Shown here in pieces: positions 2,257-62,135 of a DNA stretch of 64,000 nt. Numbering within the stretch: position 1 is the stretch's first letter; each line of letters opens with the position of its first letter. Below the pieces are notes generated by a model. The model made no database searches. It worked only from the letters and a program-made list of their open reading frames with translations, and was not told where the DNA came from. The position numbers were made by a program, and so were the translations under genes. The DNA is taken from positions 37,863,490 through 37,927,489 of the forward strand of contig NC_092459.1 of NCBI RefSeq assembly GCF_047495875.1. The letters run 5' to 3'. The DNA is from Pithys albifrons albifrons (lineage: Eukaryota; Chordata; Aves; Passeriformes; Thamnophilidae).

Positions 2257-5200
2257 TAAATCTCCTGAAAAAGAAGACTTATATCCTTTACACATTATGA
2301 AAACAAACTTGTAAGTTATAATTTTGTGGCATATATGATTACTTAATGTTCACCTATGTTATGACTCTACACAGAATTTTCTCTAGCATTCTGATGTTCT
2401 TGAGTGAGTTCAACAATATGGGTTTGTATAAAGACATTTTTTTATTACAGCATACAGATTTGATATCTGGAACTTTTGATATCAGGTCTCTTCTTACCAT
2501 TCAGCTACTAATTCACTACAATCTAATTATCTCTTTATTACTTTTTACTTAGTTTTGTTTTTTTCTTGTGAGGAAAAAAAATGGAATTCTGTAAGTGTGT
2601 AATGGTTTTGTAACAGAGTAGGCAACTTTACAGTCCTCAAATAATTTTTGTTTATTTTATACATACCATGCATGGGTTTTTCAGTAAGAATTATTTGTGT
2701 AACTAATGTAAATGTCTTGCAGAAGTGTATACACAATAATTCTATAAACCAAGACTTTTTTCTCTTAATGATACCGGTCATTACATATTGTCTGACTAAA
2801 CCTAACATATGAAAATATACATTTGACTCCTATACATAGACATTTTTTTCCTTCTAGTGAAGATTGAATTTTTTTCATTACTTTTATTTTCAGCCCAAGA
2901 AGTAAGAAAGTATTTTTTAGAAATGGTAATTAAGAAAGTATAAGGAGATTATGTGTAAAGAATTTGTTGTACATCATTTCTTTAAATATATTGTTGTAAT
3001 GTTTTGTAAGGTATTCATAAAACATTGATAACACAGTACTTATTTTTATGGGCATAAATATATCCTTTTTTGTCATATAATTCTCTTTGTAATATATTTC
3101 TGTTGTAAGAGCAATTTACTGGTTTTAAGATAACTATAAAACATCATAACAAGTATTAAATTAAAATAGAACATTAAAGACATCTGTTGTCGTATTTCTC
3201 TGAAAAGAAGTCAGAGTCAACAGCATAACTGAAAACTAATCTGTTCAACCACTCATATTTATCATTAAGTTAATTATTCAAATTGATAGATGTATTTATG
3301 TACACTGCTTTCAAATTTTTAATAAAGGAAATTATTTTAAAGAAGTAGGAGAAAAACAACAGAAAATGGTGTGTAAAGCATGTAAAGTAGCAAAAGGAGG
3401 AAACAGCTCTCTGTCACAGCTGAACAAAGGTTCAAAAATGGTACTGGAGACTTCACAGGGCTTGTCCAGGCTTCATGTATCCTCAATACTTATCCTGTGA
3501 GATTGTTGTGTGAAAGCTAAAATAATTCTGTTATCTATATATATTTCCATTTGCTATTCATATCAGAATATATTTTATTCCATAGAATCAGATAGCATTT
3601 CCTTGGAATTCTTTCAATTTTAAATCAGACCTAATGAATATAAAAGAAGAGGAACCAATGAATATTAGTAGAACTCTCTGTAATAAGACAATTGGATGGA
3701 ATCAGGCACATTGAGAGATTAGGGATTAGAGAAACTCAAATTCAAAACTACTCGTCTCATCATGCCTCTTTCAATGTTCCAGTTTTGTTCCTGTTCCTTA
3801 CAGTGTTCTTTATATATGCTGTTGATGCCTGCTGAGAATTTTCAGTTTTATGTAAAAGAGAAAAGAGAAGAGACAAAAGGCAGCTCTTGGGAAGCCAGAA
3901 AAGCCTTTGGAACAGGGAAGGCGAGAAGGACTGACAGTGAGAAAAAGACTGAAGATTTCATCCGATTTACTGTAAGAAAAAACTTGTGATTGTTACCTAT
4001 GATATGAAGCAATTCCTTCCTCTTCCTTCTCTCAGCTTCAGAAAGTCAGCCTAGCCTGTTCATACCACTATGTATATGAGCTTAACAGGGAAATATTTCT
4101 TGTTCCAAATAGGTTTATGATTATTCCTCATGAACACTATGGGACCCACTAACCTTCAGGATCACCTTGTAGATATTTGAACAAAGAAAAGAGGAAAAAG
4201 TAACTGTCTTGCAGAGACACATAAATATATTGCTGAATACGGCCACTCACAAGTCTCCAGCTGTTTTTAAAAGAGTTATCTATTTATTTAAATGAAGTCA
4301 TCATTGTAGAATAGTGTCCTGGCCAGTTCCAGATGTATTTCTTTTTGACAGAGAAGTCATTCCAAATGTGTTGCATTTTTAGATGGCAGCCGTATGAAAT
4401 CACAGGTTAGCAAATATCAGGAAGTCTTTATTTATCTATGGGGAAGCAGAATACTGAGAAAAACAGTTCTTCCTAGAAGTCACAGTATATCTTTTGCACA
4501 GCTAAACCTGAAGCCACTCCTGGAGTAGTGCTTTATTAACACAGAGGCAACCTCTCTATTTTACCTCGTCTGAAAATCTGATTTACAATTCTTTGGTTGT
4601 ATTACAGTTACTTTCCTAAATTAGGATACCTAGGAAAGACTGAAGACTATTGTAGCAGATTCTGATTAAGAGAAAAAAAAATGCTGTTCTAGATTTGTGT
4701 TGATAGACAAATGCCAGGAAAGAAGGACAGCTGTGTTCATTAGCAACGTGAGGACCACTAGGCAGCTGTAAAATAAAAAGGTGTTGTGTAGTGATTGGTA
4801 ATCTCAGCTAACAAATTTTGTTAGCTGTTATCCTTGAGGCAATTACTGTATTACATATTTCAATATGTAGTACTGAATTTCAGGGAAAAGAGCTCAAAAA
4901 TATTTTGCCTTGCCAACATCTTTTCTTGAAGATATTTAGATGGGAGAGAAAGATCATTTAAAAATATGTTCTAGGCTCATTAAGTCTTTTAAAGACAGAT
5001 AGAGAGGAAACAAAACTTCAGAGACTGTTAGTGCTTTGGGGCCTACTTAACAGCGTGGTTCATAGTGAAAGACTAAATCAGTATCATTTTTTTTTTTAAT
5101 GTGCCTTGCTTTGCAGGCATTTTTTCCCCCTCTCTTGAATTTTCTCTATCGTGTCAATAAATTGGTATTTTTTTTAAGGAAAACTAACACAGAGTAAAAT

Positions 5201-14959: not shown

Positions 14960-14969
14960 AATAATTTCA
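14960..14969 (+). repeat. Target-site duplication, left copy (RTE-like LINE)
   Basis: AATAATTTCA here is repeated exactly at 15487-15496. The two copies bracket the LINE fragment and fix its ends. Confidence 0.85.
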
Positions 14970-15486
14970 TCCTTCTGCTTCTCCGGGGAGTCTGTTCTTG
15001 AACAGGCAGGGGTCACCAGTATCGAGGCCATGCTGATGAGAACGCAGCTGCGCTGGGCAGGGCACGTCTCCAGGATGGAGGATCACCGCCTTCCGAAGAT
15101 TGTGCTCTATGGTGAACTCGCCACCGGCTGCTGTGAGAGGAGCCCTGAAGAAGAGATACAAGGATTCCCTGAAACAACACCTCAGCCTTGGCCATATTGA
15201 CTGCCACCACTGGTCCACTCTGGCCTCCAATCGGGATTCATGGAGACACACCATTCACGACGCTGCTGTTTCCTTTGAGAATGTGCAGAGAGTCAGTCTT
15301 GAGGAGAAAAGACAATGCAGAAAGAACCATTCCTTGCCAATATCACCTAAAGAGACATTCCGCTGTGCCTTTTGTGACCGGACCTGCCTATCCCGTATCG
15401 GCCTTTTTAGCCACCAGCACGCTTGCAGCAAGCGTGGGTAGTGCTCAAATCTTCGTTCGCGAAGCCTAGCCATGATGATAATGATG
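14970..15486 (+). mobile_element. RTE-like LINE, 5'-truncated 3' end with C-terminal zinc finger
   Basis: This is the 3' end of a non-LTR retrotransposon polyprotein, unlike the CR1 copies in the window. The first frame (near 15041-15130) reads RWAGHVSRMEDHRLP and then YGELATG, a block typical of the region after the reverse transcriptase in RTE-type and related LINEs. After a one-base frameshift between about 15130 and 15150, the second frame carries KKRYKDSLKQHLSLGHID and a C-terminal finger C-x2-C-x12-H-x3-C (Cys codons 15364 and 15373, His 15412, Cys 15424), stopping at 15439-15441. The 3' UTR is only about 45 bp and ends in an irregular ATG/ATA tail. Exact 10-bp target-site duplications flank it, showing target-primed integration. 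Its GC and CpG content are far above the flanks, suggesting a younger age than the CR1s. RTE assignment (perhaps the AviRTE family reported from some birds) is from memory; another finger-bearing LINE clade is possible. Confidence 0.85.
15445..15479 (+). other. LINE 3' tail shared with the 5S-headed SINE
   Basis: This is nearly the whole 3' UTR of the LINE. It aligns without gaps to 53825-53859 with 30 of 35 identical bases, including 18 exact bases AAGCCTAGCCATGATGAT (15462-15479 and 53842-53859). It is presumably the segment that the LINE's reverse transcriptase recognises. Confidence 0.85.
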
Positions 15487-15496
15487 AATAATTTCA
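15487..15496 (+). repeat. Target-site duplication, right copy (RTE-like LINE)
   Basis: Exact second copy of the 10 bases at 14960-14969, directly after the short tandem tail of the LINE. Confidence 0.85.
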
Positions 15497-26804: not shown

Positions 26805-27635
26805 TCACAGAATCAATCACATTGGAAAAGAATTCTGAGAATGAGTCCAACTTATGGCCTAACATCACAATAGCAAGTAGACCACGAAACTAGGTGCCAT
26901 GCCCAATCTTTCCTTAAATGCCTCCAGGAAAGGTTATTCCACCATCTACCTGGGCAGCCCATTCCAATATCCAATCACCCTTTCTGTGAATAAATGCTTC
27001 CTAATGTCCAACCTAAACCTTCCCTGGTGCAGCTTAAGACCATGTCTTCTTGCCCTATCACTCATTGCCTCCTCATAGCAGAAGCACTCTAGTCCCTTCA
27101 TCAGTCTCATTGCCCTTTGGTAGACCTGCTCCAGCACCTCATTGTCCTTCCTGAATTGAAAGGCCCAGAACTGGACACAGGACTTGAAGGGCATTCCCAC
27201 CAGTGCCAAGTACAGGGGAAGAATCACTTCCCTGGTCCTGCTGGACACACTATTTCTGATACAGGACAGGATGCCACTGACCTTCTTGTCCACCTGGGCA
27301 CACTGCTGGCTCACATTCAGCTGCTCTCAGCCAGGACCTCCAGATCCTTTTCTGCTGGGCCCTTTCCAGCCACTCTGTTCCAGGCCTGTAGCGCTGCATG
27401 GGGTTATTGTGGCCAAATTGTAGGATCTGGCACTTGGTCTTGTTAAGCCTCATGTAGTTGGTCTCAACCCTCATGTCCAGGACCCTCTGTCAGCCCTTTC
27501 TACGTTCCAGCTGATGGCCATTACGACTCAGTTTGGTGTCATCCGCAAATTTGCTAATTGTAGACTAAATCCCCTCATCCACATCATCAATAAAGATATT
27601 GAACAGTCCCTTCTCCCTTGATTCATACTGTGGAA
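26805..27635 (-). mobile_element. CR1 LINE 3' third, minus strand, catalytic box preserved
   Basis: Read on the minus strand it runs from the reverse transcriptase catalytic region to the 3' terminus. The FADD box followed by TKL is intact at 27538-27549. Further on come [16 protein letters not shown] (near 27200-27245), [19 protein letters not shown] (near 27120-27180) and [20 protein letters not shown] (near 26955-27015). The plus-strand left end, 'cagaatcacagaatc' (26801-26815), is the reversed 3' tail. The 122-codon frame 27314-26946 is one of the longest repeat-derived frames here, but the upstream part is frameshifted. 5'-truncated near 27635. Confidence 0.95.
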
Positions 27636-53540: not shown

Positions 53541-53552
53541 GAATAAGACTAT
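53541..53552 (+). repeat. Target-site duplication, left copy (SINE)
   Basis: GAATAAGACTAT matches GAATGTAAGACTAT at 53871-53884 apart from a 2-base insertion. The base after it corresponds to the first nucleotides of 5S rRNA, as expected for a full-length insertion. Confidence 0.7.
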
Positions 53553-53598
53553 CAGGCAGTTAAATGCCATCCTGAAACCCAATTTCATCAGATGTCGG

Positions 53599-53656
53599 AA
53601 GCTCAGTAGGGTCAGCTCTGGTTAGTATTTGGATGGGAGACCTCCTGGGAATACCG
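53599..53656 (+). promoter_or_regulatory. 5S-type internal RNA polymerase III promoter in the SINE
   Basis: The region holds the counterparts of the 5S internal control region: box A (53599-53614, AAGCTCAGTAGGGTCA), the intermediate element (GATGGGAGA region, 53632-53640) and box C (to about 53656, with CTGGGAATACCGGG). These are the TFIIIA binding elements of 5S genes (type 1 Pol III promoter). Box A has two substitutions from the 5S sequence. Whether this copy is still transcribed cannot be told. Confidence 0.7.
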
Positions 53657-53824
53657 GGGTCTGTAGGTTCTAGTCCTGAGGACTTCACTTCGTCCAAGCT
53701 TGCTCCGCTGTGGCTGATGAACTTCAGGAGCTAAACAGTGGGGCCAGTTCTGCGCACGCTGAGCCTCACCTAAAAAATCCACTGCGCAGGCTGGAAGGAC
53801 ACACCCACATGGGGAGAACCCTTC

Positions 53825-53859
53825 CCAAATCTGCGTTCTGAAAGCCTAGCCATGATGAT
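53825..53859 (+). other. SINE 3' tail shared with the RTE-like LINE
   Basis: Gap-free match to 15445-15479 with five mismatches and 18 exact bases at the 3' end. It marks the likely autonomous partner of the SINE. Confidence 0.85.
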
Positions 53860-53870
53860 TAGGGAATTCT

Positions 53871-53884
53871 GAATGTAAGACTAT
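53871..53884 (+). repeat. Target-site duplication, right copy (SINE)
   Basis: GAATGTAAGACTAT is the right copy, carrying GT inserted relative to 53541-53552. About ten bases of degenerate tail (53860-53870) separate it from the last ATGAT unit. Confidence 0.65.
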
Positions 53885-61699: not shown

Positions 61700-62135
61700 T
61701 AACCTGAAGGGTCTGGAGCACAAGTCATATTAGGAGAAGCTTAGTGAGCTGGGGTTGTTTAGCCTGGAGAAGAGGAAGCTCAGGGAAGACCTTATCACTC
61801 TATACAACTACCTTGAAAGGAGGTTGTAGCCAGGTGGGGATTGGTCTCTTCTATCATGCAACAAACAGTAGAACAAGAAAGCATAGTCTTTAGCTGCACC
61901 AGGGAGGTTGAGTTGGACATTAGGAAGAAGTTCTTCACAGAGAGAGTGATTAGATATTGGAATGGGCTGCTCAGAGAGGTGGTGGAGTCACTGCCCCTGG
62001 AGTGTTTAAAAAAACCCACTGCATGTGGCACTCAGTTCCATGGTCTAGTTGACACGGTGGTGTTTGGCCATAGGTTGGTCTTGATGATCTCCAAGGTCTT
62101 TTCCAACCAAATTGTTTCTATGATTCTGATTTAGC
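61700..62135 (+). mobile_element. CR1 LINE 3' end, plus strand
   Basis: Begins near 'gaagggtctggagcacaagt' (61707-61726). It continues with 'gggttgtttagcctggagaa' (61752-61771), 'ggttgtagccaggtgggga' (61823-61841), the LDIRKKFFTERVIRYWNGLL frame (near 61914-61973) and 'ggtggtggagtcactgcccc' (61979-61998), then the terminal 'ttccaaccaaattgtttcta' and 'tgattctgatt'. It is the best preserved of the plus-strand CR1 ends here. It lies just 60 bp from the LTR at 61265-61637. Confidence 0.95.

Follow-up and report, generated by a model that had tools for sequence, protein, structure and literature searches.

The locus described here raises the question of whether a LINE and a SINE, copies of which sit on one strand of the window (the whole 64-kb stretch of DNA that was analysed) at a distance of 38 kb, belong to families of which one provides the enzyme that mobilizes the other. 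The question arises from a common 3' end. Positions 15445-15479 of the LINE and 53825-53859 of the SINE align without gaps at 30 of 35 bases, the final 18 being identical, a match that the original prediction had reported and that was reproduced here in every detail. The runner-up 35-mer in the window, both strands considered, reaches 20 identities for the LINE piece and 22 for the SINE piece, and after 300 shuffles of the SINE 35-mer the best match in the window was at most 24 of 35.

A 3' end common to two repeat families

The LINE reading frame ends with a TAG stop codon at 15439-15441, and 35 of the 38 bases of the 3' UTR that follows (15442-15479) fall inside the match, which bears out the predicted near-complete coverage of this region. 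The gap-free match appears to begin at 15445 because the LINE in the window lacks five UTR bases that are present in other copies; when the window SINE is compared with these other copies, the match extends to 50 bases, at 84% in most rows.

A comparison of family consensus sequences and of copy ages, as had been proposed, was carried out in the window's own genome (1.144 Gb in 53 contigs). The LINE query consisted of the 111 bases of the 3' end; the best 40 of 1810 first-look candidates were scored, the window copy among them, and the other 39 were retrieved with about 4 kb of upstream sequence, so that the sample consists of the copies most like the 3' end in the window. With the SINE as the query, the best 40 of 4862 first-look candidates were scored, and 20 of the 39 copies outside the window were retrieved. 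The SINE is multi-copy in this genome: all 40 scored places reach at least 85%, and, the window itself aside, they are 85-87% identical to the window SINE. The tail of the LINE consensus (39 copies) agrees with that of the SINE consensus (20 copies) at 47 of 51 bases, and both consensus sequences precede the same ATG tail unit, as the prediction had it for the two window copies. Tail sharing thus holds at the level of the two families. The presence of one copy of each within 64 kb is unremarkable, given at least thousands of (unconfirmed) candidates per family in 1.14 Gb.

The LINE family and its copy in the window

According to the available text of Suh et al. 2016 (PMC4844689), AviRTE is a LINE of the RTE type that occurs in birds and in filarial nematodes and has a layout of about 800 + 3200 + 40 bases, the 3' UTR measuring about 40 bp; its hosts include suboscines and psittacid parrots, and a single invasion is placed in the suboscine ancestor. 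Four of the retrieved LINE copies (L031, L032, L034 and L039) carry 8 or 9 of the 10 printed AviRTE primers in the published order with at most 3 mismatches, primer 1F being absent from all four at this threshold. Copy L031 is 3999 bases long, and its frames match the endonuclease model Exo_endo_phos (45 bits) and the reverse transcriptase model RVT_1 (114 bits). Primer 4R matches the LINE end in the window at 18 of 19 bases and the SINE end at 17 of 19, the next best site reaching 14, while none of 1000 shuffled 4R primers reached 17.

The frame at 15133-15438 of the window LINE has, in the protein collection searched, 32 relatives (27 from Willisornis vidua, two from Pitangus sulphuratus, one from Amazona aestiva and two unnamed ones at 48-49% identity), so that the nearest named relatives come from an antbird, a flycatcher and a parrot; Willisornis, like Gymnopithys, belongs to the Thamnophilidae. 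Seven of the 32 read through the 3' UTR and share a G-x-x-L-x-K-S-x-F-x-K-P motif, and three of these seven carry six aspartates, corresponding to ATG/GAT units. Judged by its primer sites, its length and its predicted endonuclease and reverse transcriptase domains, the LINE family is AviRTE; ordered primer sites, a 4.0-kb length, a 3' UTR of about 40 bp, both domains and relatives in suboscines and a parrot are all features of AviRTE as far as the available description goes. It differs from the printed primers in that 4R implies GCCAAGCC at the end, whereas 38 of the 39 copies have GCCTAGCC or GCCTGGCC. At 15461-15479 and in the genomic copies, a T thus stands in 38 of 39 cases where the primer implies an A, one copy being unscored; this difference is at most one of subfamily level.

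The copy in the window has the following parts:

14960-14969, no strand: left target-site duplication (TSD; AATAATTTCA) of the LINE insertion, a 10-bp match with the right copy at 15487-15496
14978-14989, plus strand: first 12 bases of AviRTE (CTTCTCCGGGGA), identical to the element start and abutting the terminal part of the element
14990-15479, plus strand: 3' part of the AviRTE LINE (ORF end and 3' UTR), frame-shifted, from alignment to full-length L031, two reading frames and protein relatives in Willisornis, Pitangus and Amazona
15364-15426, plus strand: C-X2-C-X12-H-X3-C finger close to where the LINE protein (frame 15133-15438) ends, read from the sequence
15442-15479, plus strand: LINE 3' UTR from which 5 bases have been lost near 15443/15444, as seen by comparison with other copies
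15451-15464, plus strand: stem-loop CTTCGTTCGCGAAG inside the 3' UTR, its stem paired 5/5 in 40 of 40 LINE rows
15472-15486, plus strand: ATG-type LINE tail (ATGATGATAATGATG), read from the sequence, with the right TSD (15487-15496) immediately after it

The element is therefore made up of 12 bases of the 5' end fused to the last 490 bases (14990-15479), and its 3' UTR measures 38 bases, or 43 when the five lost bases are counted. Full-length AviRTE copies start with CTTCTCYGGGGACAC; the first 12-mer occurs a single time in the window, and in the copies shown the sequence preceding TCTGTTCTTGAACAGG differs from the 12-base piece of the window LINE. Eight bases (14970-14977) separate the left TSD from the element start, and shuffled flanks reach a match of at least 10 bp at a frequency of 0.006. 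The copy is a dead, internally deleted relic. A Pfam search with this fragment alone returned nothing over the cut-off; the finger resembles zf-C2H2_ZNF142_18 with an E value of 0.002, at 18.6 bits and thus below the cut-off of 27, and the spacing pattern searched for is kept in 10 of the 32 protein relatives. Since a C2H2 domain has already been reported from an RTE of an octopus (PMC9115989, in the text available), we do not treat the finger as new.

Elsewhere in the window, positions 842-1234 on the minus strand contain a reverse transcriptase fragment (RVT_1, 35.3 bits) that, from its look, is a bird CR1, and CR1-like frames near 26949-27326 (minus strand) and 61817-62131 (plus strand) gave no Pfam match.

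The SINE and its likeness to GymnSINE

Four features make up the SINE and its surroundings:

53544-53552, no strand: possible left TSD TAAGACTAT, uncertain; right copy at 53876-53884; shuffled flanks reach at least 9 bp at a frequency of 0.011
53555-53672, plus strand: 5S rRNA-derived head; Rfam RF00001 match at 53552-53669, the 20-copy consensus beginning with GGCAGTTAAATGCC, which corresponds to 53555
53673-53810, plus strand: body from the AviRTE 5' UTR (element about 283-423), 81.7-83.1% identical to long copies (e.g., L030, L031, L032, L034)
53810-53859, plus strand: tail made of the AviRTE 3' UTR plus the final ORF bases; 84% identical over 50 bp to most copies; primer 4R at 17 of 19

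The head matches the full RF00001 model (1-120) with 39.9 bits and an E value of 8.9e-05, the gathering score being 38. Counted within the SINE, bases 122-259 match the 5' part of the LINE (about 82-83% over 141 bp) and bases 259-308 its 3' end; at the consensus level, the SINE body and the LINE 5' UTR agree at 140 of 155 aligned bases with three single-base gaps. Two further primers, both made for the AviRTE 5' UTR, fall within the body, int-F at 53675-53695 (17 of 21 bases) and int-R at 53779-53797 (17 of 19), and they span 123 bp in comparison with 126 bp in the available published description; among 1000 shuffled int-F/int-R pairs, none matched the SINE body in the correct order. Sixteen bases (53860-53875) lie between the ATG tail and the right copy of the only TSD candidate. 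A search of the protein collection with the SINE translation (X at stops) gave two candidates, neither at E ≤ 10, a result that is uninformative because the SINE is non-coding.

In the legend to Fig. 1 of Suh et al. (PMC4844689), GymnSINE, from the antbird lineage, is described as a 5S rRNA head followed by a fragment of the AviRTE 5' UTR and the full 3' UTR. The SINE in the window has the same three parts, and a comparison with this described build, as distinct from a deposited sequence, revealed no difference. The same source, in the portion available, attributes a bipartite AviRTE tail also to ManaSINE1, ManaSINE2, BuceSINE and MeloSINE; the window SINE resembles them in this tail, whereas their heads derive from tRNA-Glu, a GC-rich sequence or 28S rRNA. 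We therefore consider it highly probable (about 95%) that the LINE is a dead AviRTE copy and that the SINE is GymnSINE or a very near relative, an identity set by the described build.

The SINE copies L070-L089 vary in the stem (CTTCG or CTGCG) and near the end (GCCTAGCC, GCCTGGCC or GCCGAGCC), which suggests SINE subfamilies. In L051, a stretch that resembles the AviRTE 5' UTR (bases 4556-4694; 85.6%, element 283-420) lies shortly past the LINE copy, and is perhaps another SINE beside a LINE.

Probable dependence of the SINE on AviRTE and a possible origin of two-part tails

In stringent-type LINEs, among which RTE is counted, the 3' tail is held in common with the partner SINE, as set out in the available text of Hayashi et al. 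2014 (PMC4176376). In two such pairs, BovB with Sauria-type SINEs and UnaL2 with UnaSINE, the SINE likewise ends in the 3' sequence of the LINE with which it is paired. The LINEs of these two pairs belong to families other than AviRTE. The tails of the Sauria-type SINEs and of UnaSINE consist of the partner's 3' end and are not known to include a 5' UTR piece.

For the SINE studied here, AviRTE is, as judged from sequence agreement, very probably the enzyme source. The SINE RNA would be transcribed by Pol III from an internal promoter in the 5S head, the AviRTE protein would recognise the 3' end common to LINE and SINE RNA, and target-primed reverse transcription would insert the new copy. What this genome displays directly are a 3' end and a tail unit common to LINE and SINE, a 5' UTR piece that both carry, and a coding partner family. 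The suggestion that the LINE is the source of the enzyme thus stands for the AviRTE family, whose tail (47/51), body (140/155) and primers match both elements; it fails for the copy in the window, which is deleted and frame-shifted and therefore not itself an enzyme source. In the same way, an autonomous/non-autonomous pair is represented in the window at the family level, the LINE member being a dead and internally deleted copy.

With regard to the structure that might be recognised, all five pairs of the stem CTTCG/CGAAG are intact in 40 of 40 LINE rows versus 7 of 21 SINE rows, the window SINE retaining two of five pairs, and single-sequence folding was no better than shuffles (z values of -0.49 and 0.5). 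Because most SINE rows have an imperfect stem and folding gave no signal, a simple stem-loop rule is disfavoured; the stem-loop was set aside as the common recognition structure and may yet have a part in it.

In the two samples, the SINE copies are the older ones: they differ from their consensus by a median of 5.9% (range 4.2-8.6; window SINE 8.5%), the LINE copies by 2.0% (range 0.8-7.1; window LINE 3.4%), both samples being those most like the window copies (best 40 of 4862 and of 1810 candidates, respectively) and hence no measure of family age. This greater divergence would fit a SINE that was mobilized by a different, older or related RTE with an AviRTE-like 3' end, the present AviRTE subfamily merely sharing its ancestry, and so would the differences between the consensus sequences, which affect 4 of 51 positions in the tail and, in addition to gaps, 15 of 155 aligned positions in the body. 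We regard such a history as unlikely: both UTR pieces of the SINE match one element; of the four tail differences, two preserve or alter a CpG or pyrimidine; within the limited set of sequences compared here, no LINE turned up that fits better; and the text of Suh et al. (PMC4844689), as far as available, places one AviRTE invasion in the suboscine ancestor.

Two simpler accounts of the common end can be dismissed with near certainty. That two unrelated 3' ends resemble each other by chance or as simple repeats is suggested by the low complexity of ATG units and by the behaviour of the 18-base tail itself, which was missing from the viral contig collection (0 matches) and recurred once in the genome contig collection, in a bacterial contig with ordinary coding frames that is otherwise dissimilar, a match we ascribe to chance. 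The 300 shuffles never rose above 24 of 35, however, and the agreement of the consensus tails together with the separate 140/155 block in the same SINE refutes this account. Duplication or gene conversion of one segment inside the window would suit two copies on one strand 38 kb apart, but it is refuted by the occurrence of the same ends on 39 other LINE and 20 other SINE copies from many contigs, and the LINE has its own TSD. We thus retain AviRTE as the very probable enzyme source. This pairing is already known: in the text available, Suh et al. 2016 (PMC4844689) state that AviRTE is the enzyme source of its SINEs. A LINE/SINE dependence of the textbook type, described by them for AviRTE, an element that tropical birds have in common with filarial nematodes, is here confirmed from raw sequence and the host genome.

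The structures of the LINE copies bear on the two-part tail. Among the 39 copies chosen for their likeness to the 3' end in the window, a sample whose proportions are not genome-wide, 16 are full length, one is full length with an insert, and 11 are 5' truncated (one by just 30 bases); six (L030, L035, L046, L058, L067, L069) retain the 5' end but have lost more than 1 kb of internal sequence. The remainder comprises two copies with the 5' end and deletions of about 66 and about 117 bases, one that starts at 49 and has two deletions, and two that reach the fetch edge. The window copy (junction within 14978-14990) likewise keeps its 5' end and has lost more than 1 kb of the interior. The 5' breakpoints of the six large deletions lie at element positions 66, 529, 529, 532, 554 and 659, four of the six within 529-554; five of the six copies have a TSD candidate of at least 10 bases, a count given without a shuffle baseline. 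At the four deletion junctions viewed (L023, L027, L030, L035), the overlap is 0 to 4 bases. Splicing was rejected as the cause of the internal deletions, there being no GT-AG borders at these four copies. We take the deletions as the probable outcome of template jumps by the reverse transcriptase, which could also account for the two-part SINE tail.

A further possibility, proposed tentatively and not yet favoured, is that the reverse transcriptase of AviRTE frequently leaves the 3' part of its RNA and lands on the 5' UTR of that RNA, at about 529-554 of the element, so that the insertion retains both ends, that such fusions of 5' and 3' UTR might form the stock of bipartite SINE tails, that a second jump onto 5S, tRNA or 28S RNA might add the head, and that the window LINE may be a product of the same process. 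Neither truncat- nor template switch occurs as a word in the main text of Suh et al. (PMC4844689), as far as it was available. Their work could gain from the count of copies with a 5' end but no interior, which suggests how one LINE could give rise to several SINEs with the same two-part tail.
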